DNA of 64,000 nt, from assembly GCA_022496805.1 (NCBI GenBank), contig CM040087.1:5778001-5842000 (forward strand), given 5' to 3'. The position numbers and the translations under genes are program-made. This DNA comes from Pohlia nutans (taxonomy: Eukaryota; Streptophyta; Bryopsida; Bryales; Mniaceae). Below are positions 6,029 to 41,213 of the stretch, one piece after another; position 1 is the first letter of the stretch; each line of letters begins with the position of its first letter. The notes below the pieces were generated by a model. That model saw nothing but the letters and a program-made list of their open reading frames with translations. It made no database searches and was not told where the DNA came from.

Positions 6029-9000
6029 TCACTTGCCAACGAAGCTGGGTATAATTTTCTGTAATAAATTAAAGCTGTCTTCCCCTTTGCTCACGTCTGT
6101 AGCAGATGCTTCAAATAGCTCTTTCTCTAAAATGGAGACTGCATCTGCAAAAGCCTGATTCAAGCAACATAAAACATATATAACTTGTTCAACATAAAAT
6201 ACTCACTCTTAGTTCTGCAGTTGCAATATATAAAAGGAAGCACCTGCACCATGTAAAGCTTCATGGAATACAAGTCTTAAACCCCAGTACATAAAGATTG
6301 ATCAATTTGTGGTCAATTCCGCACCATTACACTCTACTACCTCATGCTGCATGAAAATGAAACATGCCTGTTAATAAGTACACCACATGGCCTTAAGGCT
6401 ATTGCATAAAACTTCACATAATAGTAGGAAACCAAAGCATTGCCAAATAGCATCGAAGATATTCACTCTCGTAAAGAAGAAAACTGCAAGCAGATCTGAA
6501 ATGCTGGAGCAAATCCCTCAGTGTACCTTCACAATCTGCTGAATGCGGAAACAGGTGCTGCCAACATTATTCTCAAAATCGAATGGATCTTCAATATACA
6601 AAGGATCAATACTGCAACAAAACAACGGCCTCTGATTTTAATATACCCCGGTGATTGTGCACCACATATGTACATGCATCCCTCTTGTCACCATAGACTG
6701 TGACAATAAAATATCAAAAATTCAGGTGTAACAGCCAATTCTCTGCTTCATAAATGTGCGCAAGCTGTTAACAAGTGCAGACATAAGAAAAATTAAATTG
6801 GAATGTACTCTGCAGTTAGGTGTTAAAATGCACGGGTACAGTTACAAGGGGACCAAATACATACCTCGGGCCACGATCTCTGCTTACATACTTTCCTCCA
6901 CTCCGTATACGGACGCACATACTTCGAGGATCAAAAACGTATCTTCAAAAAGGAGTATCAAGCAAGTTATGCATGTTAAAATGCGTGCTATATAGTCAAG
7001 CTTTGATAGACATATATTCTGCTCTGACACCTGAAAATTCTGAACTCCTATTTGAAAGAACTAATAATAACTAATAATAACTAATAAAAATAAAAATAAT
7101 CAAAAATAGACTACGGAACGTGGTGAGCAGCAGGCTTACCCAAAGAATTGAAGAAAGTCCATAAACAAGCTTCCGAGATTCTGTGTCAGATACCACCAAG
7201 CAAGAGTTAGAACAGTTTGATTAAGTGAACTATATAGCCTTATCAGACCTTGTCCTGTTAAGTGATGATGAGTGAACCTTGAACAGAAAATGCTAGAGTA
7301 ACTAGAAAGAGTAGATAGGGACGGTGGCATCGAACGTTGAGGAAAAATGCAATACAAGCCTTTCGTCAAAAAAAAAGAGCCAACCTCGTTTGAAGAAGGT
7401 CGTCCAAGATGCTGTTGGTGCTGGAGGAAACGTGTAATCAATAAGACCTAAGGAAATGGTTGAACACCCCATGAGAGAGAGGGAATGAAAAATTGGATAA
7501 AAGAGGGCAAAATGCGAACCTTGACATCATTACGTACTCATGAGCTTTCAAGAGACTATCATCAGTATTCAAACTCATTAAGTAAACGCCAAGTGAGAAA
7601 TTAAAAGACATCTCTGACAAGCAAATGATAGAAACCGTCTTAATTCTACTTCGCAATGCACTTCGCATATATTGGCACTAGTTAGAGAGCTGAAAGCGGT
7701 CACAAAAGATCATATAATAGTGGCACCTACAAAAATAATTACAAAGAATAATAATCAATCAAAGAATTCGTAAAAACAGCTTATAAGATGCTTAGCCAGC
7801 GTCTGAAGGGGATTGATGTGACAGCTAACCTGGCAGTATGAACTGAGACCGCCCTTGTAGGCATGGTCAAGGCTCCGGTCTGCAAGGAACTGCTTCAGCA
7901 CTAACGCTAAGGGTGTCAAAGGAGGAAATTGCCCCATCAGCTCCCGAACCTGGTCATGGGGTTCACCGCATCAGATAGATTACATGGTACACAGTAACTG
8001 AAAACCTCAATCCTGCATGTGATGCGCCGTAAAACGAATCACAGATCAGAGGTATCAATACAGTTGCTAAATGTGATTGCATACAAACACCACACAGAAC
8101 ATCAACCATAAAATCAAGCAGTATAGGAAAAAATTACCAATTCAGAAGTACGAAGGCCTGTATTGGTCGGAGCTTCAAAACTGATATCAAGACGGACTAT
8201 TTGACGATCTTTCTCAGAACCCCACAAACCCTCCTTCCCTGCAGAATCTCCAGAGCCTTGACTAGTTGGTGAACCATCTAGTGCATCGCTGCTTGTACCC
8301 ATAGGACATGTCTCTTTCACGCTCAAAGAAATGTCACCCAACTGGCACTGATGCGGTAAAATGTGAGCCTTTAATCGTATGATTGGAACCTGAAAAAATT
8401 TCAGTTAACATATGAACACAAAAACCATACGTGCAATGAAAGGAACAAGAGGAATCAAGAGTCCACATAGCAAAAAAATAATACAAACCAGGAAGGGGAG
8501 AAACAGCCATGGAATCAGCAAGTGGTCGTATTATGTACCATCGTGTGCTCAATAACTTGCAGGGACTTAACCCAATCCTGATCTTCAAGGTTGCGTGCTG
8601 CATGCTGTGATCCAACAATCTCCACTGTGAGTATAAACAATCCCTGACTAGCATAAAGAGGTCATTTTTCAGAAAATAAGGTCACTCATTCTATCAAAAC
8701 TCCTTGGAAGATTAGTCCGCTTTTAGAGACGTCGTCAAAGCATACATAAAAGGATCAATTCACTGCCGAGGCACACTAACCAGCAAGCAAGTCTCCTTAA
8801 CCCCGTCAATTCGCCCTTCCAATATTCCAGCTTGTTTGATTGGTTCCCGCGCCTACATGAGACAATCATATGGCAGCAGTGAAGTTGCAATACAATGTAA
8901 AATGTCAATATCTGGTCCTATTTAATCATAAGAATCTTCAAACTAAATTACATTTGATCGTTGTAGGAAATTTCTACAGTTAAACTCAATAATCTGAAGC

Positions 9001-16339: not shown

Positions 16340-17166
16340 TAAGAGCATCATCAACCCACCGCAGAAAAAGAAGCAGGACCGTGACTTCTTCTGCGGTGGG
16401 GCGTTCCGCAAGATTTTGAGCGTTCCAACGCAGGAACGGCACCGTGCTTGGCGGACCTGGCCACGCCAATTCTTCCCTCTCGCCCGTTACTTCTAGGATT
16501 TCTCATGCGCCCGCTACCTTGGCCCAGGAACGCGGCCACAAAGGGTCCGAGTTTCACGGCAGAGGAGGAGCGGCAGATGTGTCGTTCGTTTCTTGTCGTT
16601 TTGCATGCGGTGGCAGATTCGCAGTGTTGCTTTGGGACCGCGGGTTGGAGGGGAGGCATCCACATGCGGCACACCACACAGGCAGCCCCGCAGACCAATC
16701 TGAAAATTTGCGATACAGCGCCTTGATGCCGTTTCTGCATTGATGATGCTCTAAGAGCATCATCAACCCACCGCAGAAAAAGAAGCAGAACCGTGACTAC
16801 TTCTGCGGTGGGGCTCCCATCAAGATTTTGAGCGTTCCAACGCAGGAACGGCACCGTGCTTGGCGGACCTGGCCACGCCAATTCTTCCCTCTCGCCCGTT
16901 ACTTCCAGGATTTCTCATGCGCCCGCTACCTTGGCCCAAGAACGCGGCCACAAAGGGTCCGAGTTTCATGGCGGAGGAGGAGCGGCAGATGTGTCGTTCG
17001 TTTCTTGTCGTTTTGCATGCGGTGGCAGATTTGCAGTGTTGCTTTGCGACCGCGGGTTGGAGGGCAGGCATCCACATGCGGCACACCACACAGGCAGCCC
17101 CGCAGACCAATCTGAAAATCTGCGATACAGCGCCTTGATGCCGTTTCTGCATTGATGATGCTCTTA
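16340..17166. mobile_element. Tandem pair of GAGCATCATCAA MITEs sharing one border
   Basis: Two copies of a unit of about 410 bp (16343-16751 and 16755-17163), nearly identical by eye. Each starts GAGCATCATCAACCCACCGC and ends TGCATTGATGATGCTC. The borders read TAA, TAA (shared) and TTA, consistent with a TWA target as in PIF/Harbinger (Tourist) elements. Just inside the left end a CCACCGCAGAA / TTCTGCGGTGG stem adds a subterminal hairpin. The many short open frames on both strands here are translations of the repeat. It sits immediately upstream of the nucleotidyltransferase gene. Confidence 0.85.
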
Positions 17167-17336
17167 GACATGAATTGAAAACCCGAAATCATGGGAATTG
17201 AAAAATAAAATAAAACCATACAAAGCGTCTCAAAAGCCAAAAACTACCCATCCACAAGGACAGAAAAGGGGAAGAATAAAGCAAAATGAAAGCCCACAAG
17301 GGAAAAACCCTTCGCAAACTAAAACCAAACTTAATG

Positions 17337-27470: not shown

Positions 27471-27881
27471 TGATCAAATTTAGATATAAAAAGAAAAGAA
27501 AATCTAGATATGGAAAAGATGATGTCACACGGAAAACGCACTGAATCAGTGTAGTTTTAAAGACGATTAAAACACGACATTTGACGACTATAAAGAGTGC
27601 TGAATTCATACGTTTTCAGTAGATGTATCAATCGTGTCGAATCAGTACTATATCCGCTTGTACGAACATCGTGTCATATCAGTGTAGTTGCGATGAATGA
27701 CGCAACGATGCGGAATTAGTGCGAAAATTGTACGAACCCTTGAAATATCGGAAATCGCACTGAATCAGTGCAGAATCAGTGGGGTCCGGAATTCCTGATG
27801 TAGGTTTTAGGTTGCAACGGCCGGCAGTCCTTCCAGAAGGAGTGTCACACGCTCGGGGTTAGTTGCAACAGGTGGTGTCGA

Positions 27882-28413
27882 TCATGGGGGTCTATTCATT
27901 TCAACAAACTCCCGAATAACTTGGTTCCACTCACGCAACTTCAGCAGCCAGTCGCGCAATGCCACGAGCCCGGGAAGTGACGACTCTGGTTCACCCGAGC
28001 GGTATGTAAATGGTGGATGGAGTTGCGAGGATTATTCATGCAACTTTTGTCGGGTGAGTCGATGAGGAGTGTGTTTGACTCGTTAGCCTTAGGGCAGTTT
28101 TTGAATAACATGGCAAGTGGCTTCAGGAAAATGGGCTTGTCCGGGTTGGAGGGATCCCTGTACTTGGAGACAACACACATTGCCTGGCCAAAAATCCGGT
28201 CTGACGTCATAATCACTCGGGTGATATCTTGAAGTCCATTCTTATAGCGGGCCAATTTCTTCGTACCACATGCAGACTAGAAAACCACCTCGAATTGGAC
28301 AAAGCAAAAATTCAGGAAACTTCGCAAGTTATTCCTCCACCGAATATCGCCAGCGCCACCAGAGTCAGAGTCACACTATAGTCCATTCACGTCGAGTACG
28401 AGAAAGAATGTTG
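27882..28413 (-). pseudogene. FCP1-like (HAD) phosphatase domain, broken
   Basis: Minus-strand order matches plant FCP1-homology proteins. The nucleophile-motif relative FFLVLDVNGL starts near 28413. It is followed by LRSFLNFCFVQFEVVF at about 28330, then a TAG where the family has tryptophan. SACGTKKLARYKN comes next, and an open part at 28255-27941 has PIFLKPLAMLFKN and SNTLLIDSPDKS (family: LLIDDSP). It closes with LPGLVALRDWLLKLREW in a second frame, ending TGA at 27884-27882. Breaks seen: a stop right after DVNGL, the Trp-to-TAG change, loss of one Asp from the DDSP motif, and one frameshift. Intact relatives are Ser/Thr phosphatases. This copy cannot be active. It sits at the left edge of the GC-rich palindrome-repeat island. 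Confidence 0.7.
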
Positions 28414-28687
28414 GCCACATGCCCGGAGACAAGGTCGGCTGTGCCAGCGAATCCACCCGCGGGAAATCTGCTATTTGCAGTGGAGGGAGAAGAGGGGACC
28501 GGTTTGCGCAGGATACAAACGATGAGCAGTTAGTACCACGTGCGTGGATTAGAACGACGAGTCATATCATGGATACTACACAATGGACGGGGAGGCCTCC
28601 CCATGAAGGCAGCGTCACTAATGAAATCCTAGGGTCTAAACATGCAGGAATGACATCGGGAGGGCTCCCTAAGGGCAAACTTTCGGA

Positions 28688-28949
28688 ATTTTTTATTTAT
28701 TTTCAATTATAAAAATATCAAGACCTACATTGCAAAAGCGGTCCATTACAGCTCCGAGGGCAGCCAACATATATACGAGCCGAGATTCTAAGAGGAGAGG
28801 CCTCCCTATCTACCTAGACATGTTTTTTAATTTTCAATTATCGAAATTTCAAGACCAACATTGCAAATGCGGTCCATTATTGTTCTGAGGGCACCCAAAA
28901 AAGATGCAGACCGAGATTCTAAGAGGAGAGGCCTCCCTATCTACCTGGA
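28688..28949. repeat. 131-bp direct duplication
   Basis: Two adjacent copies each run from a TTTTCAATTAT block through CAAGACC.ACATTGCAAA and GCGGTCCATTA to CCGAGATTCTAAGAGG and AGAGGCCTCCCTATCTACCT. Each unit ends in the AGGCCTCCCT palindrome typical of the island. CGAGATTCTA recurs at 28781 and 28912. Confidence 0.85.
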
Positions 28950-28983
28950 GACAGGTGAGTGTCGGGGGCCTCAGACATGCTCG

Positions 28984-30045
28984 TCAGCATTCCCTCTGCG
29001 CTGGGGTCAAAGGCCCCCTCTTTCTTGCCACCCTCGGAAGTGTGCGCCTTCGACCGGGGACGCCTTGCCGCCTTCTGAGAAAGCGACTGGGAGCCTCCAT
29101 CGCCAGTGGATTCGACCCGACAAAGGAGGGGGCACCCGATTCCAAAGGTGTGCTAACAGAGGCCCCACGAGCGTGTCTAGCATCCCGTCGGGCACTCCCG
29201 GCAGAGCCGCCGGGCTCAGTGGGGGAGAGAAAAGGAGAAGATGAACTCCCCTCAGTGTTGACAGAGGCCACACTTCCAGGTCCGCTACCATGGGCTCCCT
29301 TTGCACCCTGGCCCTTTCGCCGTGCAAGAGCAGCTCGACCTTGGGCCGAAGTGGTCATGTCCGGGAAAACGACTGGCTGCCGTTCCCGACTGGACCTACG
29401 AACGTTACTCGCTGCACCGTCCCCGAGGTCAGACCTCTAGCTGTCGGGGTCGAGTGGTTGGCGCTCGGAAGCCTTCCTCTTCCTCGCACCCTTCTGCAAA
29501 CCCTTCTGCGATAGGGAGGCCTCCGCCTCTCGGGGGTCCTGCGTTTCGCACTCTGGTACAGCAGGTGCGAAGGGCTGCCCAACCACCGATGACTCCCCAC
29601 CAACGCTGGATGCCTCTATTCCATGCAGGAGGGACTTGAGAGCTCTCCCGGTCTTCGACGGTGGGAAGGGCTCCCCATTTAGGCCTACCTACTCGGACAC
29701 CGCTTGGGCCGATGGGGCAGGCTCCCCATGAGGTTGAGCATGACCATGCGATAGAGAGGCCTCCTCCTCTACATACAGTTGACTGTGAGTGCTGCGCGGG
29801 GATAGGAAAGGCTCCTTCTCTTGGAAATGCTCAATACACGTGCTGGGTTGGGATCGCGAGGGATCCCGATTCAGGGCAGGAGGGATGTGTGCGGTGCGCG
29901 GGGACAAGGAGGGCTCCCTGTCAAGGCCAGGCACACGGTGCATGCTTCGCTGCGATAGAGAAGGCTCCCTATGCCGGCGACGTGGTGTGCGTGTCATGCT
30001 CAGATATAGAGGACTCATTGTCTCGGCCCGACACGTTGAGCGCAC
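28984..30045 (-). pseudogene. Repeat-encoded, Ser/Pro/Arg-rich reading frame with two TAG stops
   Basis: One minus-strand frame stays open for about 1060 bases except for TAG at 29689-29691 and at 29437-29439. The first part encodes 17-aa repeats (REPSLSQRSMHRVPGLD, then REPSLSPRTAHIPPALN, and so on). The repeats merge into a non-repetitive, basic, Ser/Ala/Gly-rich stretch (QKGARKRKASERQ, then GRAALARRKGQGAKGAHG). Its GC content is high. The KRK cluster looks like a nuclear localisation signal. It may be a damaged coding exon of a minus-strand gene running from the TATA box at 33.49 kb towards the FCP1-like remnant, or only a by-product of a 51-bp repeat with low stop content. I recognise no domain. 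Confidence 0.4.
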
Positions 30046-30260
30046 TGCGCTGTGATGGGGAGGGCTTCCGCTCTAGTCGGACTGAGTATGTTGGGCTGGG
30101 ATAGGAAGGGCTCCCCTCCGCGGCCCAGCTCCGTGTGAGTGCTGAGCTGAGATACGGATGCCTCCTCTCATTGCCCATGATCCTCAGTGTGCGTGTTGCG
30201 CTCTAATAGGCAGGGCTCCCTGCCGCTGCGAGGCTCTGTGTGCGTCTTATGCACCGACGC
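29640..30260. repeat. Degenerate 51-bp tandem array with GGGAGGGCTCCC core
   Basis: About eleven units near 51 bp, each carrying a variant of GATAGGGAGGGCTCCCTATC: for example GGGAAGGGCTCCCC (29668), GATAGAGAAGGCTCCCTATG (29955), GGGGAGGGCTTCC (30056) and AGGCAGGGCTCCCTGCC (30207). Units are strongly diverged, but spacing holds well enough for the encoded 17-residue rhythm on the minus strand to be visible. Confidence 0.7.
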
Positions 30261-30291
30261 ATCGGATGACAAGTTCACAGGGTTGTCCACG

Positions 30292-30582
30292 TCAAACGAG
30301 TCCAGGGCGCCATATGCTTGGGTTTACCGTGGGCTGATTGGAATCCTTGCACCAATGCGCTGGGGGGCCCTCTCTATCTTTGCGTTCCGCCAGCCATTCC
30401 TTTGTGGAACGGCAGGAGTTGACTGTGGTCGACGCCCCCCCACCCCCCACTCCCGCGACTTGGTCATTTGATACCGCTGGCACTTGACGATCTAGAGGAT
30501 CATTATGCAGTGGACGAATGTTGTCCCCGGTGTTCTCAGGCGGTGCGTCAGGCAGATCATTTACATTTAAAAAATCCTCCAC
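30292..30582 (-). CDS. Possible exon, unknown protein
   Basis: A 97-codon frame without repeats: acidic start (EDFLNVNDLPDAPPENTGD), a glycine run (VAGVGGGGAS), then STKEWLAERKDREG, ending TGA. It has no ATG; a CAG acceptor (AACTGACAG) lies just upstream, so it reads better as an internal exon than as a small gene. It lies between the 26-bp and 51-bp arrays on the strand of the TATA box at 33.49 kb. I do not recognise it. Confidence 0.35.
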   Translation of the reverse strand: MEDFLNVNDLPDAPPENTGDNIRPLHNDPLDRQVPAVSNDQVAGVGGGGASTTVNSCRSTKEWLAERKDREGPPAHWCKDSNQPTVNPSIWRPGLV

Positions 30583-30639
30583 GCTCTGTCAGTTCGGTCG
30601 AAACACCGACGACGCGTCCAAGGAGAACTCTCGACGCGC

Positions 30640-33290
30640 CCTAGGCAGAGCTTCCCACGCACGCTGCTAGAGAAAGCTCCCCACGCGCACAGCTCGGGAG
30701 AGCTCCCCACTCGCGCGCCTTGAGAGATCTCCCCATGGACGCTGCTCGGGAGAGCTCCCTACGCGCGCGCCTTGAGCGATCTCCCCACGGACGCTGCTCG
30801 GGAGATCTCCCCACGCGCGCTGCCCGGGAGAGCTCCCCACGCTCGCTGCTCGAGAGAGCTCTCTACGCGCGCGCCTAGGGAGACTCCCCATGGACGCTGC
30901 TGGGGAGAGCTCTCCACGCTCGCTCCTGGAGAGAGCTCCCCATGCACGCTGCCTGGGAGAGTTCCCCACGCACGTTGCTGGAGAGAGCTCCCCACGCGCG
31001 CTGCTTGAGAAAACTTCCTACGCATGCGCGCGTAAGGAGATCTCTCCAAGTACGCTGCTCAGGAGATCTCGCTATTAGCGCAGCTAGGGAGAGCTCCCCA
31101 CGCTCATGCTTAGGGAGAGCTCTCCACAGACATTGCTGGAGAGAGCTCCTCACGCGGGGTGCTGGGAAGAGCTCCCCACGCGCAGGCCTAGGCAGATCTC
31201 CCCACGGACGCTGCTTGGGAGATCTCCCCACTCGCGCGCCTAGGGAGAGCTCCCCATGCTCACGCCTAGGATGAGCTCCCTATGCATGCGGCTCGAGAGA
31301 ACTACCCACGCGCGCTTCTAGGAGAGCTCCCCACGCCCGCGCCTAGAGAGAGATCTCCGCACAAACCCTACTCAGGAGATCTTCCTACGCACGCGCCTAG
31401 AAAGAGCTCCCCATGCTCACGCTTAGAGAGAGCTCTCCACACACATTACTGGAGAGAGCTCCCCACGCGCGGGCCTAGGCAGATCTTTCCACGGACGTTG
31501 CTCGGGAGATCTCCCCACTCGCGCGCCTAGGGAGAGCTCCCCATGCATGCGGCTGGGAAGAGCTCCCTACGCACGCTGTTGGGAGAGCTCCCCACACCCG
31601 TGCCTACAGAGAGATCCCCATGTTCTCGCCTAGGGAGAGCTCCCCACGCTCTCGCCAAGGGAGAGCTCCCTACGCTCTCGCCTAGGAAGAGCTCCACACG
31701 CGCGCGCCTAGGGAGAGCTCCTCACGCGCGTGCCTAGGGAGAGCTCCCCAAACTCTCGCCTAGGGAGAACTCCCCACGCGCGTGCCTAGAAAGAACTCCC
31801 CACGCGCGTGCCTAGGGAGAGCTCCCCACGCTCTCGCCTAGGGAGAGCTCCCCACGCGCGTGCCTGGGGAGAGCTCCCCACACTCTCGCCTAGGGAGAGC
31901 TCCCCACGTGCGCGCCTAGGGAGAGCTCCCCATGCCCTCGCCTAGGGAGAGCTCCCCACGCCTGCGCCTCGGGAGATCCCCGCACGGACGCTGCTCACGA
32001 GATCTTCCTATGCACGCGCCTAGGGAGAGCTCCCCACGCTCTCGCCTAGGGAGACCTCTCCACACACATTGCTGGAGAGAGCTCCCCACGTGCGGGCCTA
32101 GGCAGATCTCCCCACGGACACTGCTCGGGAGATCTCCCCACTCGCGCGTCTAGAGAGAGCTCCCCATGCTCGCGCCTAGAGAGAGCTCCCGATGCATGCG
32201 ACTGGAGAGAGCTCCCCACGCGCGCTGCAAGGAGAGCTCCCCACGACCGCGCCTAGTGAGATCTCCGCATAGACGCTACTTAGGAGATCTTCCTACGCAC
32301 ACGCCTGGAGAGAGCTCCCCATGCTCTCATCTAGAGAGAGCTCCCCACGCTCTTGCTTGGGGAGAGCTCCTCACGCTCTCGCCTAGGGAGAGCTTCCCAC
32401 GCTCGCGCTTAGGGAGAGCTCTCCACGCACGTTGCTGGAGAGAGGTCCCCACGCGCGCGCCTAGGTAGATCTCCCCACGGACGCTGCTCGGGAGATCTCA
32501 CCACACCCGCGCCTAGGGAGAGCTCTCCACGCTCGTGCATAGGGAGAGCTCCCTACCCTCGCGCCTAGGGAGAGCTCCCCACGTTCTCGCCTACGGAGAG
32601 TTCCCCACGCTCTTGCCTAGAGAGAGCTCCCCACGCTCGCGCCTCGGGAGATCTCCCCACGCCTGCGCCTAGGGAGAGCTCTCCACGCTCTTTCGTAGGA
32701 AGAGCTCCCTACCCTCGCGCCTAGGGAGAGCTCCCCACGTTCTCGTCTACGGAGAGTTCCCCACGCTCTCGCCTAGGGAGAGCTCCCCACGCTCTCGCCT
32801 AGGGAGAGCTCCCAACGCTCTCGCATAGAGAGAGCTCCCCACGCTCTCGCCTAGGGAGAGCTCCCCACGCTCTCGCCTAGGGAGAACTCCCCACGCTCTC
32901 GCCTAGGGAGAGCTCCCTACGCTAGCGCCTCGGGAGAGCTCTCCACGGTCGCGCTTAGGAAGAGCTCTCCACGGAGGTTGCTGGAGAGAGCTCCCCACGC
33001 GCGTTTGTCTAGGGAGAGCTCCCCACGCTCTGGCCTAGGGAGAGTACCCCACGCTCTCGCCTAGAGAGAGCTCCCTACGCACGCTGCTGGAGAGAGCTCC
33101 CTACGCGCGTTGTCTGGGAAAGGCGGAAAGCTCCCCATACGTGCGCCTAGGGAGATCTCCCCACGTACGCTGCTCGGGAGATCTCCCTACGCGCGCGCCT
33201 AGGGAGAGCTCCCCACGCTCACGCTTAGGAAGATCTCCCGAGCAACGTACGTGGGGAGATCTCCCTAGGCGCGCGTGTGGGGAGTCCTCT
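30640..33290. repeat. 26-bp satellite with palindromic GGGAGAGCTCCCC core
   Basis: About one hundred units of roughly 26 bp. The commonest is CCTAGGGAGAGCTCCCCACG followed by a variable CTCTCG, CGCGCG or GACGCTG. The centre is GAGCTC in most units and GATCTC in a minority; minority units often sit next to a GACGCTGCTCGG variant, suggesting a higher-order arrangement. Units are best conserved at 31.7-32.0 and 32.75-32.95 kb and degrade outwards. Many open frames occur on both strands because the unit lacks stops in several frames; these are not genes. Confidence 0.92.
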
Positions 33291-33472
33291 CTACAAAATG
33301 GATGGGGAGATCCATGGTGAGCTCCCAAAGACAATATAAAATAGATAAAATGCACAATCGGGCAGGGTTGAGGAGCTTGCGCCATAGCCGTGGACGAAGA
33401 TATTTGAGTCGAGGACAACAAGACCGGAATTAGGCAGCGCTTCGCGGTGACAGGAAAAGCGAGTGAAGACAA
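33101..33472 (-). CDS. Possible first exon of a minus-strand island gene
   Basis: A frame opens 20-30 bases downstream of the TATA box at 33491-33498 (ATG at 33472, second ATG at 33385: MAQAPQPCPIVHFIYFIL). It runs into the satellite, where it becomes a translation of the 26-bp repeat, so a splice donor before about 33300 is expected; I found no strong GTAAGT. Unknown function. Confidence 0.35.
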   Translation of the reverse strand: MSSLAFPVTAKRCLIPVLLSSTQISSSTAMAQAPQPCPIVHFIYFILSLGAHHGSPHPFCREDSPHARLGRSPHVRCSGDLPKRERGELSLGARVGRSPEQRTWGDLPRRTYGELSAFPRQRA

Positions 33473-33490
33473 ATGAGGTCTGGGAAGACC

Positions 33491-33498
33491 TTATATAG
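33491..33498 (-). promoter_or_regulatory. TATA box, minus strand
   Basis: CACTATATAAGG on the minus strand, an excellent plant TATA context. Transcription would start near 33465 and run into the 26-bp satellite and the lower-coordinate half of the island. Confidence 0.55.
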
Positions 33499-33884
33499 TG
33501 CGGCGGAGCCGCTTGAGCTTGATCCGACGGTTTAGGGTGGCTGCCCTAGATCTGACGGTCGTCCGCGCGCCATTGCGACAGGCTAGAGTAGCCAGAGTTT
33601 CGGCCGTGTAAGGCCGGGTCTCGGCCGTGTATAAGGGATATTATATTTCTTCCCAAATAACAGGACATGTGGCGCCATCTGAGATGTCCATATGTGCAAT
33701 CCGACGGCTGCGCAGGCCCACCAATGGAAAGCTACGATGGAAGACTATTAGTTTGAAACCCTACAATAAATCCCCATTTCAATGCGGCCAACCATTTGGA
33801 GAGCCCGCTCATTTGACCCAAGCCTTGAATTCCGTGTACTTTCTGTATTAAATGTTGTGTCAACGTGGCGCATCCACCGCTTGA

Positions 33885-34064
33885 CACGTGTACTTTCTGA
33901 CGTCAGCCGCCTACGTGGCAGGTGGGTTTTTTGGCACCTACTGCTATGTTCATTTATGTTTTGTCCTTGTTTTTAGTTTTAATTATTGTAGGGTTTTATT
34001 TTTGTCATTTATCGTGTACAAAAATATTGTTTTGCCGGCGACACTCATCCCCGTCTGACACGTG
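33885..34064. promoter_or_regulatory. bZIP-type element cluster between two divergent start regions
   Basis: CACGTG (G-box) at 33885-33890, TGACGTCA at 33898-33905, TACGTGGCA ending 33920, and a second CACGTG within GACACGTGGAAG at 34059-34064. A further AACGTGGCG lies at 33862. Four or five ACGT-core sites in 200 bp, non-repetitive, between a minus-strand TATA box and the plus-strand gene look like a shared promoter. Plant bZIP and bHLH/PIF factors bind such cores. Confidence 0.5.
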
Positions 34065-34254
34065 GAAGGGAGATTTGCCTATTGGATTTGTCTTACCCAT
34101 AGGAAGGCCACCCTATATGTAAGCCCTAGGATGCCAGTGGAGAGGTCTCCCCACCAGACGAGGCCCGTAGGCAGGTCTCTCCTAGATAGGCCGGGACAAC
34201 CGCAGTCCTGCCATAGCCGACCTCCATTGCGGTGTTGGGAGTGCTCCTAGAGCT

Positions 34255-35050
34255 CGGATTGGGCAGCCAACCCCACCTCGGCCTCCGTATGGAATGCTAA
34301 ATGATGGGGAGGTCTCCTCACCCGGATGCCTGGGACAACCGCTTCGCGTCTACGGTCGCCCCCGTCACGCTTCACGGAGGCCTCCCGGAGCGCCAGGTGG
34401 GCAGCCAACCCCACCTCGGCCTCCGTGTGGAGCGCTAAATGATGGGGAGGTCTCCCCACCCGGATGCCCGAGACGACCGCTTCGCCTCTACGGTCGCCCC
34501 CATCACGCTTCACGGAGGCCTCCCGAAGCGCCAGGTGGGCAGCCAACCCCACCTCGGCCTCCGTGTGGAGCGCTAAATGATGGGGAGGTCTCCCCACCCG
34601 GATGCCCGGGACGACCGCTTAGCCTCTACGGTCGCCCCCGTCACGCTTCATGGAGGCCTCCTGGAGCGCCAGGTGGGCAGCCAACCCCACATCGGCCTTC
34701 GTATGAAGCGCTAAATGATGGGGAGGTCTCCCCACCCGGATGCCCGGGACGACCGCTTTGCCTCTACGGTCGCCCTAGTCACGCTTCACAGAGGCCTCCC
34801 GGAGTGCCAGGTGGACAGCCAACCCCACCTCGGCCTCCGTGTGAAGAGCTAAATGATGGGGAGGTCTCCCCACCCGGATGCCCGGGACGACCGCTTTGCC
34901 TCTACGGTCGCCCCAGTCACGCTTCACAGAGGCCTCCCGGAGCGCCAGGTGGACAGCCAACCCCACCTCGGCCTCCGTGTGAAGAGCTAAATGATGGGGA
35001 GGTCTCCCCACCCGGATGCCCGGGACGACCGCTTCGCCTCCACAGTCGCT
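34255..35050. repeat. 138-bp tandem repeat, about 5.7 units
   Basis: CTAAATGATGGGGAGG starts at 34297, 34435, 34573, 34711, 34849 and 34987: exactly 138 bases apart each time. Every unit contains GGGGAGGTCTCCCCACCC and CGGAGGCCTCCCGG-like palindromes. The period is 46 codons, and both strands stay open through all units (plus-strand frame 34294-35136, 280 codons). Copies differ at only a few positions, so this array is young. It immediately precedes the plus-strand gene and could be part of its leader or N-terminus. Confidence 0.95.
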
Positions 35051-38000
35051 CTCGTCACGATTCGGGCGCGGGACCTTCTTCGATTACAAGCAAAGATATC
35101 GGCAAGGGTTTTGTGGAGCACGTCATGGCGACTTAGGGCAATGTAAGCTTCGGCCGTCGACCGTACAGGCGGAAGGGACGGTACTGGCCATCGTCAATGA
35201 TACCTGCAACGTCATGCTCGCAACAACGAAGAAGGAGATTGGCAACGGTCGGCAGGACGTGCAGAAGTACCTGCCGGTTTTATTCACATGGCAAGTCGTC
35301 CGCAACAAAGTAAACAATGTAAGCAGACGCTGCACCCTCCTCTGTTTTAACTTCTCACCCTATTTTTTAACTGGTGTCCCACCAGCAACCTAATCCGGGT
35401 GCGCTCGGAGGTCGGGAGGTCCCCCCATCGTATGGGTGTAGGAGTATTGTAGGGGGGCCTCCCGGGAATTGGAGTAATTTTGAATCGGAATAATGCGCAG
35501 CGTTTTGGGAGGTGTCTCCAGAGTTTATCCGATGTGCGACTCGCGGGGAGGGCCCCTCTGCTTTGTAGATGTGGTGCCCATCTCTGGTCGCATGTACGGT
35601 GGGCTCTCCACTGTGGGAGTATCCTGAATGGATATGACGGTCGTCCTATGGGGAGGTCTCCCCACTGTCTATCCAACGGGCGGTAGCTGGGGAGGTCTCC
35701 CCATTCTTCGATGACGAGGGCATCGTTTCTCTCATCACTAGGGTGTCCTCTGCAGTCGCGGATAGGGAATTCTCCCCATGTCCGACGCCATGTCCCTGAC
35801 GGGTATGTGTTTTGGCAGGTGAACTCAAATGTTGGTATGGACGCTGTGTTGCAGTCTACGATCAGCCGCATGAAGAAGAGGGTGTTCAGGAACGTCGACG
35901 TCAAGAAAGCTGGCAACCCGTTTTCTAAGTGCTCTAAATGTAACGAACTAAAGGAGTTCATCGCGGCGGCGGGGAAGGGTAGCTCGGAGGCACTGTACCA
36001 CCAAAGGTTGTACGACGCTCATGTTGCTCACCAGCAGTCCTGTCGGCGCCTTTACTACAGCTGGAGGCTCAGTTTCCAAGAGGTGACCGACTTCAAGTCA
36101 TACATAAAGGGTTATGTCCGGCCTCTCGAGGGGATGAAAGAAATGCACATTTTTCGCTTCTTTGTGGACAGTGATGGGTGGCCGGTATTCCAATACAAGG
36201 CATTTGCGACGGACACGGCCTCGCTGCCCCGAACGGGCCCTCACAGGATGTGGAAGCAGGACCGCGATGGTCATCCATTGCTTCCTACAGGTACGCTTTC
36301 TACCATACCTGCTCATCATGTCCGATGGAGATACTTCCTTATCTCTCCACTTCTACAATTGAAGTACTCAGCTTCGGGACATCCTAAGCTCTCCGTCTTG
36401 GGCAGTCTTCCTGGAGAGGCCTCTCCACCCGTATTCGCGGTAGTGCAGGGGGAGTCTTCCAGAAGAGGCTTCTCCACCCGTATTCGCGGTACTGTAGGGG
36501 GAGTCTTCCTGGAGAGGCCTCCCACGTGTCGTCGAGGAAGTGTATGGGCAGTCTCTCTCGAGAGGCTTCTCCACCCGTATTCGCGGTAGTGTAGAGGGAG
36601 TCTTCCTGGAGAGGCCTCCCACATGTCGTCAAGGAAGTGTATGGGCAGTTTTCCTGGAGAGGCCTCCACACCTGTCGTCGAGGAATTGTATGGGCAGTCT
36701 TCTTAGAGAGGCCTCTCCACCGGTAGTCGCGGTAGTGTAGGGGAGTCTTCCTGGAGAGGCCTCCCCACCTGTCGTCAAAGAAGTGTACGGGCAGTCTTCC
36801 TGGAGAGGCTTCTCCACCCGTGTTCGCGGTAGTGTAGGGGGAGTCTTCCGGGAGAGGCTTCTCCACCCGTATTCGCGGTAGTGTAGAGGGAGTCTTCCTG
36901 GAGAGGCCTCCCACATGTCGTCGAGGAAGTGTATGGGCAGTTTTCCTGGAGAAGCCTCCCCACCTGTCGTCGAGGAATTGTATGGGCAGTCTTCCTAGAG
37001 AGGCCTCTCCACCCGTAGTCGCGGTAGTGTAGGGGAGTCTTCCTGGAGAGGCCTCCCCACCTGTCGTCGAGGAAGTGTACGGGCAGTCTTCCTGGAGAGG
37101 CTTCTCCACCCGTGTTCGCGGTAGTGTAGGGGGAGTCTTTGTGGAGAGGCCTCCCCACTTGTTGTCGAGGAAGTGTATGGGCAGTCTTCCTGGAAAGGCC
37201 TCTCCACCCGTCCTTGAAGTACCGTAGGGGCAGTCTTCGTGGGGAGGCCTTCCCAGTTCTTCAGAGTCTTGTAGCCGGAGGCCTACCATGTTAGAAGTGA
37301 CTGACTTGTATTCGCCGTGTGTCTTAGGTGACCCCGCCCTGGTGAAGATGAAGCCCGTCTGGGGATGCGAGCGTGGTGTCAACCCGAGCACGAACTCTGA
37401 GGTGACTGAAGAGGACACCGTGAGGTCACACGAGAAGAAGCATTTCATCCGAGCGGGGCTTCAGAAATACGTGGACATCTGGAGGGGAGGCTGCCACCGT
37501 AGCGAGGCGTACAGGGGCCGAATGGAGGCATACGTGCAGTACTCGGTGGACATTATCACGGAACTCCGCTCCGAGGATACGCCGCTGGCCCCGAGGACCC
37601 TTGTGTATGGATTCTGGCCGACCATAGATTGGACGACGGCTTACTCTCCTCCTCCGCCAGCACCAGATGAAGTGCGGAGGGAGAGGGACCCCGCCAACGC
37701 AACTCCGGAGGACGATGTGCCCGATCCTTGGTGCGGTCCATTACGTCGCCGACCAACACCAGCATTCAACCCGTATCGTGACGCCCTCATCGGGCACTTT
37801 TTCCTCGTGAGACCCAACGACCCCACAATCTATCCAGTGTGGATGGACAGGGTGCTTGCACCGGCCGTTCGTGACGCCCGCTCCGCACATCACGGTAAGT
37901 GCCAAATCCGAAATTAGAGGCCTGCCCGAGGAGGCCGTGAGCTCAGTGACGAGGAGCGGTATAGAGGTTGTTGGGATGTGAAGTGGGAGCGCGATGGCAG

Positions 38001-38166
38001 CGACAACGCCGTCTGTTGGGTGGATTGCACTGCCATCCTCTACGGAAGTACACCCAAAGTGAACTTCACCGAGAGCTCGCTTCGCAAGATTCCGAAGTTG
38101 GATGCAGACAACGCCAAGGCACTTCTGGCCGCCTCTCACGCCGCCTCCGAGGCCGGTGGTGACTAG
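35016..38166 (+). CDS. Unrecognised four-exon gene of the GC-rich island (transposon-like protein?)
   Basis: Exons 35016-35318, 35819-36290, 37328-37894 and 37931-38166 join in phase and give 525 aa if the ATG at 35016 is used; that start lies inside the last 138-bp repeat unit and is doubtful. Splice sites: AAT/GTAAGC to TTTTGGCAG, ACAG/GTACGC to GTGTCTTAG, CACG/GTAAGT to GCCCGAG. Exon 2 has a CxxC pair (NPFSKCSKCNELKEF) and a basic helix-like segment (HQQSCRRLYYSWRL). Exon 3 contains HFFLVRPNDPTIYPVWMDRV. Exon 4 contains SDEERYRGCWDVKWERDG. The FxKCxxCxxLK block with a following H..Q..RR.YY resembles DUF7869-type proteins linked to large eukaryotic transposons; I hold this weakly. Introns 1 and 2 carry the island palindrome, and intron 2 is the 49-bp array. 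Confidence 0.55.
36404..37265. repeat. 49-bp tandem array filling intron 2 of the island gene
   Basis: AGTCTTCCTGGAGAGGCC recurs at 36404, 36453, 36502, 36550, 36599, 36647, 36696 and on to about 37210, giving about 17 units of 48-49 bases. Two unit types alternate loosely: one ends CCACCCGTATTCGCGGTAGTG, the other CCACCTGTCGTCGAGGAAGTG (ends quoted approximately). Each has GGAGAGGCCTCTCC or GGAGAGGCCTCCCC. Because 49 is not a multiple of three, the minus strand shows the same motif in three frames in rotation (GEASPGRLP, WRGLSRKTA, GRPLQEDCP), so the 354-codon minus frame is an artefact. Confidence 0.92.
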
Positions 38167-38339
38167 CGGCATGTAGGATAGGCCGATCACAGTAGCCACC
38201 ATTGGACGTTGAATAGAGTTTGCACTCTGGCGGAAGAATGTCCCCATGTACTCGATTTGAATTGAAATACAGTTTTCTTTCATTTGATGCTTTGAGTGTA
38301 ATGACACCTATGGTTTTTACAGACTCTCTACTGCTCTTC

Positions 38340-38640
38340 TGGTACAGGAGGACAGGCGTCAGCAGAGAGACCTCCCCATCACAGCCAAGGACAGCATCCC
38401 GGGAACCATCAAACACCGATCGATGGGGACGGCTCCCCAGCATTTGAAACGACAATGGGGAGGCCTCCCTATCGCATGGAACCGGAATTGAAATAACTCC
38501 CTGTCGCAGAAATTATGACCGCAGATAACTCCCTGTCGCAGAAAATCACATTGTCGATTTCTCCATGTCAACAGAATTCAGGCATTCCTCCTTCTGAATA
38601 CGGCCTCTCTATTGATTTTTTGCGACCTCCCCTGGCTCAT
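38340..38640. repeat. Right fringe of the palindrome-repeat island
   Basis: Further spaced palindrome variants: AGAGACCTCCCC, GGGGACGGCTCCCC, GGGGAGGCCTCCC. Then come two copies of AACTCCCTGTCGCAGAAA, about 32 bases apart, before the sequence turns AT-rich near 38700. It marks the boundary of the island. No inverted terminal repeat matching the left edge was found. Confidence 0.55.
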
Positions 38641-38699
38641 CTCCCTATTTCTAAGCAACTCAAAAAGTCCGGGATTCGCGCGTAAATCCGGTTTTAACG

Positions 38700-39650
38700 A
38701 AATGCGTGTTCCTTATGTAAAATTAGATGATGATAAATTCAGGTGCAAGAAACTTGGCCTCTTTGTTTTACTTTATGTGCATGAAATTATATACACCTAT
38801 CAATAACCTCCATATTTTTAATTGTGATTTTATATCCTATTAGTGTACATTGTAGACGGAATGTGATAGGGTGGGTATAAATGTAAGTTTTGAATCAATT
38901 ACATATCAATTCTCTATGATTTTGTGAGAAAATGAAAATGGTACTCTAGGTGGAAGGCAAGGTGGTTTTAAAACTTCTAAAAATATATATAAACAATTGA
39001 ATATTCTACACAGTTAGTGGATCATAGTAATCGCAATAAAAACTGAAAGTTGATGACATCAAAATGAAAGTTGATGATATCAAAATGAAAGTTGATGGCA
39101 TATAAATGAAAGTTGTAGATGATGATTTTTTTATGATATTTATATTGTTGAATTAAGTAAGTGTTGAAATTTGTTTGAATTTAATTTAGAGTGAGATTAT
39201 CGATTTATTTGTATGAAAAATACAAAAATATACATTATCTTATGAATTTTGGAATGATTGGCCAAATATGTACAATACTAAAACATTTTTTTCATAATGA
39301 GAAATACTTCAATTTATAATCTTTTGATTGCTTACAAAGAGATCTAAAGACACTGTTATTATGTGAAAAACTTCACCACTGTTGAAAACAAATGATTTCA
39401 ACCAATTATAATGAATTACAATATTAAAGTATTAAAATTGTAGTTTTAGTGAATCTCATCAAAGTCCCTTATGGTTAATTCATTTGAAAAATATTTAGGC
39501 ATTTGATATCAAATTCAAGCGTACAGATGTCTTCTAATAAGGATGTTTCACATATTGTATGCTCTTTAGAGTTGAAGCTCAAAAAAGGTTACAGAAGCCT
39601 TATTTTATAATACATTTAGGTATTGATCAAACCTTCTAGGCACTTAGGAG
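38700..39650. other. AT-rich intergenic DNA, no gene seen
   Basis: Apart from a triple GAAAGTTGATG short repeat near 39045-39115, I see no gene or element border here. Confidence 0.45.
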
Positions 39651-40600: not shown

Positions 40601-41213
40601 CTACTGCGTGGTGCAGAATTGGAGGTGTAGATGCAATATATACCCATAATTTTGTTCAAAATATTCATTGAAGTCAACAAAATATTCCCTACATTCCAAA
40701 TTTTGAACCCTAAACTCCATATGCTAAACCCTAAAAACCCCATATGCTAAACTCTAATTTCCATATACTAAACCCTATATGGTAACCCTAAACCCTATAT
40801 GGTAACCCTAAACCTCAAACTCCATATGCTAACCCTAAGCCTCAAACTCCATATGCTAAACCCTAAAAACCCCATATGCTAAACTCTAATTTCCATATGC
40901 TAAACCCTAAACCCTATATGCTAACCCTAAACCTCAAACTCCATATGCTAACCCTAAGCCTCAAACTCCATATGCTAACCCTAAATCCCGAACTCCAAAT
41001 CCTAAATCCCGAACTCCAAACCCTAAATCCTAAAATCTCAAATCCTAAAACCCAAAACTCCATGTGCTAACCCTAAACGCCAAACCCCAAATCCTAAAAT
41101 CTCAAATCCTAAACCCTAACCATATACTGCCACATTGCATTGCTGACGGAATAATATATTCCAAGAATATTCCGCACCCACACCCCGTACTTCAATTCTG
41201 CACCACGCAGTAG
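40601..41213. mobile_element. TIR element carrying telomere-like repeats
   Basis: Ends CTACTGCGTGGTGCAGAATT and AATTCTGCACCACGCAGTAG are perfect over about 20 bases. The interior from about 40735 to 41120 is a degenerate CCCTAAA array. I see no target-site duplication and no coding capacity. Confidence 0.8.
40735..41120. repeat. Interstitial telomere-like (CCCTAAA) array
   Basis: CCCTAAA or CCCTAA recurs every 13-30 bases, spaced by CCATATGCTAA, CTCAAACTCC and similar phrases, with larger repeats (CTCAAACTCCATATGCTAAC at least four times). It is too degenerate and too well bounded by the TIRs at 40601 and 41213 to be a chromosome end. Confidence 0.85.

Follow-up and report, generated by a model that had tools for sequence, protein, structure and literature searches.

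A multicopy TIR DNA transposon family in Pohlia nutans with lineage-specific palindromic sites, and a possible parallel to the VANDAL elements

A broken transposon copy

The window, i.e., the whole stretch of 64,000 nucleotides of Pohlia nutans DNA analysed here (C3:5778001-5842000 in a 698-Mb genome of 332 contigs), contains a 5'-truncated transposon copy in which the remains of a transposase gene are accompanied by tandem arrays and solitary sites with a shared palindromic core (Table 1). This copy lacks the left ~870 bp of the element, the left TIR included, and matches its TIR-to-TIR sibling (L075) at 85.6% across the first 5.4 kb, with 138-bp arrays that differ in copy number between the two (5.8 units in the window and 3.8 in the sibling). 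The element reaches a little beyond the limits of 28.5-38.6 kb that the initial annotation had given to the island of palindromes.

The splice sites of the window gene were read by eye. The exon 1 remnant starts directly after the 138-bp array, and the parts of L039 and L036 that it matches lie inside exon 1 of these loci. In exon 2, ~660 bp of L036 are missing from the window between 36067 and 36075, and only the tail of DUF7869 is seen by Pfam, with an E of 8e-4 that falls below the Pfam cut-off; the structure model of exon 3 is of low confidence (mean pLDDT 40.9). The transposase gene of the window looks dead, and its product is unlikely to be a working binder, because most of exon 1 and the DUF7869 core are missing and a TAG codon lies in exon 3; its relatives elsewhere would be working binders.

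A search of the genome with the exon-2 protein of the window gave many matches, with 150 of 1788 candidates scored. Three other places found in this search also span the core deletion, so the deletion form itself has probably multiplied. The idea that the shortened protein is a selected repressor was discarded, given that each of these three places has an internal stop.

Other repeats of the window include a 412-bp unit with a tandem duplicate at 96% (16340-17168) and degenerate telomere-like CCCTAAA repeats ~2 kb downstream of the element (40687-41119). The 138-bp array (46 codons per unit) stays open as a frame of 316 aa (34186-35136, + strand), possibly as a mere effect of its period.

Table 1. 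Features of the transposon copy in the window (window coordinates).
Feature	Position	Strand	Basis or remark
5'-truncated transposon copy	27796-38710	+	Colinearity with L075 (C2:45632194-45643692), a sibling complete from TIR to TIR
Scattered solitary core sites, including a loose run with ~51-bp spacing	28590-30250	.	Core matches, site spacings
131-bp duplication	28692-28946	.	TRF; one core site in each unit
26-bp tandem array	30635-33265	.	~95 + 5 copies, single core per unit
138-bp tandem array	34260-35063	.	5.8 copies, each with two core-like sites in the TRF consensus
Transposase exon 1 remnant (most of exon 1 absent)	35064-35318	+	Matches L039 3916-4200 and L036 from 7939
Intron 1	35319-35821	.	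7 solitary core sites (<=2 mismatches)
Transposase exon 2	35822-36291	+	Internal deletion, most of the DUF7869 core gone
49-bp tandem array within intron 2	36400-37255	.	TRF
Transposase exon 3	37329-38166	+	TAG codon inside, 37915-37917
Subterminal half-site TAGGGAG	38641-38647	-	Starts 64 bp inward of the terminus
Right 18-bp TIR AACACGCATTTCGTTAAA	38693-38710	-	Match to the family terminus

Palindromic core and tandem arrays

The exact core, GGGAG-NN-CTCCC, occurs 46 times in 27.8-38.66 kb and 0 times in the remaining window, and the counts rise to 109 vs 1 when one mismatch is allowed and to 172 vs 10 with up to two. When the island was shuffled ten times with its dinucleotides preserved, the averages were 0.0 exact matches, 1.2 with up to one mismatch and 16.8 with up to two. 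The earlier remark that the core is confined to the island holds, and the density of the core exceeds what base composition would produce. Over the whole genome, the exact core was found at 6687 places, compared with 649 for the reversed pattern.

Four arrays of different period had been described at this locus. TRF recovers those of 26, 138 and 49 bp, the first as two stretches (30635-33106 and 33143-33265), and also the 131-bp duplication that had been reported with them. The supposed 51-bp array at 29.6-30.3 kb, on the other hand, is absent from the TRF output and dissolves into a run of imperfect sites spaced by 26, 51, 39, 102, 51, 51, 100, 46 and 105 bp. A comparison of consensus spacers, which covered the arrays of 26, 49 and 138 bp, found no more resemblance between them than between shuffled sequences, the observed scores being reached by 141, 79 and 195 of 200 shuffles. 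A derivation of these three arrays from one ancestral repeat is therefore rejected, in keeping with the initial annotation, which had treated the satellites as unrelated. Related arrays are found in other copies, i.e., those of 26 bp in L039, in L075 and in a complete element on contig C1, that of 138 bp in the same C1 element, where it reaches 29.8 copies, and those of 49 bp in L036, L037 and L039.

Ends, target duplications and MITEs

The right ends of the five copies compared (the window, L036, L037, L039 and the C1 element) have a common terminus, AACACRCATTTCGTTAAA, and the 18-bp TIR is paired at both ends of the element, with termini of the form AACAC...GTGTT. This TIR has 576 exact matches in the genome (273 + 303), and its control has 0. 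In the first 100 places of the list, paired TIRs enclose long elements, 8.7 to 40.8 kb in length, and, in many cases, MITEs of 255 bp. These MITEs form a family of very similar copies with the same TIR (e.g., C1:17638247-17638501).

A 4-bp target duplication (TSD) flanks 22 of 30 copies, namely 18 of 24 MITEs, three of five long pairs and the C1 element, and an exact TSD is absent in the other two long pairs examined. When other lengths (2, 3, 5, 6 and 8 bp) were tried on the MITEs, only 2 bp matched, and this only once. The duplicated sequences are variable, TTGT, ATTG, CCAA and TAGT being found among others. The complete C1 element (C1:2098262-2131442) contains 27-bp arrays with the same core beside its 26- and 138-bp arrays, as well as three inserted Copia-type elements that were recognised by eye.

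The island is thus one broken copy of a multicopy TIR DNA transposon with 4-bp target duplications, and the earlier proposal of a large element carrying the core sites holds. A viral origin was rejected: a scan of viral contigs with the L036 exon gave 4 pattern matches, none of them confirmed as a relative, and the presence of TIR and TSD favours a transposon.

Transposase and its lineages

In L036, a relative of the window copy, the frames of three exons are open, and the DUF7869 domain is recognised by Pfam with an E of 7e-47 (3e-44 in L038). The motifs IIHDGMD, QLDN and VGHTHEDID, present in exon 2 of L036 and of other copies, suggest that DUF7869 may be an RNase H-like transposase core.

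A second lineage of the transposase is 45-48% identical to lineage 1, that of the window, across the initial portion of exon 2. It is split into branch 2a, with 36 of the 114 scored matches (94-98% to L038, L038 included), and branch 2b, with the other 78 (73-76%), and one locus was examined per branch, L038 for 2a and L040 for 2b. The exons of these two loci align at 68-69%; outside the exons, they match each other at core sites and in a telomere-like repeat, apart from a few short hits. Substitutions between 2a and 2b show an excess at the third position (68/43/182), which suggests that the copies moved while coding.

In the ORFs scanned, no Pfam family besides DUF7869 passed the cut-off. 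The C1 element has a second gene, whose ORF (L003:8792-9982, - strand) has a stretch that looks ParB-like by eye. This likeness is at most tentative: Pfam yields nothing for the stretch at E values up to 10, and the best solved structure, with an E of 0.7, is not significant. No relative of this ORF occurs in the window or in L036-L040.

The telomere-like repeat (CTAAACC) lies upstream of the element in both lineage-2 loci (L038:1361-1421 and, in reverse, L040 77-146). Lineage 2 also seems over-represented near contig ends, with 20 of 75 places within 1.5 Mb vs 7.3 expected (the count covers the 75 of the 114 matches on contigs of known length, C2, C7, C9, C11, C15 and C17 among them), and lineage 1 has 5 of 50 places there, drawn from the exon-2 search, vs 4.2 expected.

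Geometry and placement of the sites

The TGGGGAGNNCTCCCCA palindrome alone is conserved in 35 sites of the window outside the arrays, and likewise only the palindrome is conserved in 430 pooled sites, arrays included, from 27 non-overlapping loci of lineage 1. When pairs of the form GGGAG-N(0-12)-CTCCC are counted, a spacer of precisely 2 bp separates the halves in 46 of the 48 window pairs, in all 123 of the C1 element and in 202 of 204 in the 27 loci. Within the 26-bp array of the window, the ten core positions have a mean of 1.52 bits vs 1.04 for the spacer, and 2 of 25 shifted masks outscore the core, which is therefore not uniquely the most conserved part; in the 26-bp array of the C1 element, the core ranks first of 26 masks.

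Mirrored positions of the core show neither covariation nor an excess of compensatory changes in these two 26-bp arrays. Two of 32 tests of mirrored pairs gave p <0.02 in the direction expected for pairing, both among the 16 tests outside the 26-bp arrays: pair 1 of the 49-bp array (p 0.009; 8 double changes are compensatory), where two alternating unit types could be the source of the signal, and pair -2 of the C1 138-bp array (p 0.013). Given the rigidity of the two half-sites and the lack of covariation in the two 26-bp arrays, binding of DNA by a dimer fits the core better than RNA hairpins do. The initial annotation had left the choice between these two kinds of functional site; the core behaves like a putative DNA-binding site, dense in non-coding DNA and with a half-site near both termini, and the hairpin is disfavoured.

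Exons are depleted of sites: with exon limits that are approximate in the five loci compared, the density inside vs outside the exons is 0 vs 11.7 core sites per kb in the window, 0.6 vs 6.3 in L036, 0.3 vs 15.5 in L039 and 0 vs 4.6 in L038, and one of the 17 sites of L040 is exonic. The same intron of lineage 1 that has scattered sites in the window (Table 1) has 6 in L036 and a 26-bp array of 21 copies in L039, i.e., within this lineage the site persists through changes of spacing.

Near the termini, the half-site T[AG]GGGAG is located 64-66 bp from the end in 15 of the 16 ends examined, even where bases 19-63 differ between subfamilies; the exception is the left end of the C1 element, with the half-site at 80. 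Of 48 MITE ends, 28 have GGGGAG without mismatch at position 67, and the MITEs keep only an imperfect core. From this arrangement, the half-site probably helps transposition; as the MITEs keep so little of the core, the arrays look dispensable for movement and would not be needed in cis.

Lineage-specific letters

The letters of the site change with the lineage on one scaffold: TGGGGAG-NN-CTCCCCA, ATCGGGAG-AT-CTCCCGAT and ATCGGGSG-AT-CSCCCGAT. The exact TGGGGAGNNCTCCCCA is found 8 times in the window island, 45 times in the C1 element and 77 times in the 27 loci of lineage 1, and 0 times in L038 and L040, which bear variants of ATCGGGAGATCTCCCGAT (L038, 2a) and ATCGGGSGATCSCCCGAT (L040, 2b).

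The lineage-2 pattern ATCGGGNGATCNCCCGAT occurs at 909 places in the genome, compared with 0 for its control. Fifty of these places were listed, all on contigs C1 and C2. Among them, the 9 sites lying within 5 kb of a 2a gene all have A or T at position 7 on one side or both (both in 7 of them), and the 10 sites near 2b genes all have C or G there on both sides; when the distance is widened to 20 kb, one exception turns up, an S/S site near a 2a gene. These associations of site and lineage count related copies and not independent events.

Alternative explanations

The strongest competing explanation, which we consider unlikely, is that the palindromes serve transposition only, docking the transposase for synapsis or excision and being amplified to raise its local concentration, without a role in chromatin. 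The fixed half-site of 15 of the 16 ends is in line with it, as are the many MITEs with one imperfect core per end and the repeated subterminal sites of the CACTA elements, which according to the part of PMC2613891 used here are bound by TNPA. Most sites of the window, however, are in introns and flanks, far from an end, and a single imperfect site per end, or none, was enough for the MITEs to move.

A less probable explanation would see in the palindrome the site of a host transcription factor or chromatin protein, which is either exploited by the element or silences it. The geometry is that of a dimeric factor, and the sites are upstream of the gene and in its introns, as this explanation would have it; a fixed host factor, though, would favour one form of the site, and here the letters change with the lineage of the transposase and a half-site is kept at a fixed distance from the termini.

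Palindromes, like short repeats, tend to be unstable, and the core might by its own nature provoke slippage or unequal exchange and let the arrays grow without a function, in the same sense in which the core had been proposed earlier to drive local duplication. The different copy numbers of the 138-bp array in the window and its sibling agree with such an origin, which we nevertheless hold to be quite improbable, since many sites are solitary, the spacing of two bp is kept, the exons are depleted, the letters follow the lineage of the transposase, and one intron is dotted with 7 solitary sites in the window but holds an array of 21 copies in L039.

RNA hairpins in the transcripts of the element are very improbable: perfect palindromes can fold, many sites are intronic and two of the 32 tests went their way, but as a main reading they were rejected on the covariation tests of the two 26-bp arrays, the home of most window sites tested, and a loop of two bases leaves a hairpin little room.

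Comparison with known systems

In described features the element resembles the known Sola elements, for which the part of PMC10741241 used here gives a TSD of 4 bp, TIRs, a DDD transposase, a size above 15 kb in some cases, and a report in Physcomitrella. The variable 4-bp TSD and the paired TIRs are shared, and by these features the element is a candidate Sola-like one; arrays of palindromic sites are not mentioned for Sola in that part of the source. Among the top-ranked papers of the literature searches, judged by title and opening abstract lines and mostly outside the subscription journals, none describes the element or reports arrays of palindromic sites for Sola elements or for DUF7869, and none on DUF7869 itself was found.

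Other superfamilies do not accommodate it. CACTA and Kolobok are excluded because of the TSD and the termini, and MULE because of the TSD: there are no CACTA termini and a 3-bp TSD matched in 0 of 24 MITEs; the Kolobok TSD is specific for TTAA (PMC9587614, in part), and those found here vary; and the MULE TSD measures 7-12 bp (PMC10741241, in part), whereas 8 bp matched in 0 of the 24 MITEs, which also counts against membership in VANDAL. The CACTA elements (En/Spm, Tgmt*) do share with this family an element-specific repeated motif that varies between subfamilies (PMC2613891, in part), and TnpA activates Spm in correlation with demethylation (PMC10398659, in part); the sites of the present family, however, fill the body of the element as well as its subterminal zone.

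The layout is reminiscent of the VANDAL elements of Arabidopsis, in which, according to the portions of PMC5735166 and PMC10398659 used here, VANC21 and VANC6 each recognise a short motif of their own, repeated in tandem upstream and within introns, and cause methylation to be lost. Both systems repeat a short motif in tandem within introns and other non-coding DNA; in VANDAL, again from these portions, related elements have related proteins and different motifs, and the arrays turn over fast. Motif-bearing tandem repeats in non-coding DNA that differ between related elements are found here too, which makes the family VANDAL-like as a working likeness only. It differs in its unrelated DUF7869 transposase, 4-bp TSD, 18-bp TIR and palindromic site, and Pfam found no VANC domain (DUF1985 or DUF287) in the ORFs scanned, among which the second gene was only partly recovered.

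A proposed self-recognition system

The reading that we favour, with a probability of roughly 0.6, is that of a transposon family with a DUF7869 transposase in which a protein of the element would bind the palindrome as a dimer, the sites serving both transposition and anti-silencing or self-activation. The binding of the site by an element-encoded protein is highly probable from the sequences; the anti-silencing role, drawn by analogy with VANDAL, falls somewhat short of an even chance.

According to this proposal, the TIR transposon would insert with 4-bp target duplications by means of its DUF7869 (DDE/DDD-like) transposase, and a DNA-binding protein of the element, either the transposase or a partner, would recognise the palindrome as a dimer. 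The single half-site ~65 bp from each end would probably aid transposition, and the palindromes in the introns and flanks would recruit the protein to the body of the element, where it would most likely keep the element's own chromatin active through anti-silencing or self-activation, as VANC does for the VANDALs. Tandem duplication would multiply and renew the sites, with periods and spacers turning over and the site staying, and the letters of the site would shift along with the lineage of the protein.

Tentatively, and with slightly less than even odds, this may be a second, independently evolved VANC-like system, i.e., a Sola-like plant transposon whose body is tagged by the element itself with palindromic sites for a dimer, in which protein and site code co-diverge by lineage and each lineage resists silencing without waking the others. 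Sequence-specific anti-silencing through repeated motifs is already documented for the VANDALs, and an equal layout in a transposon of other kinship, whose palindromic code varies from lineage to lineage, would indicate that private self-recognition may evolve repeatedly. The lineages would then constitute a natural series of protein-site pairs for studying the evolution of specificity.
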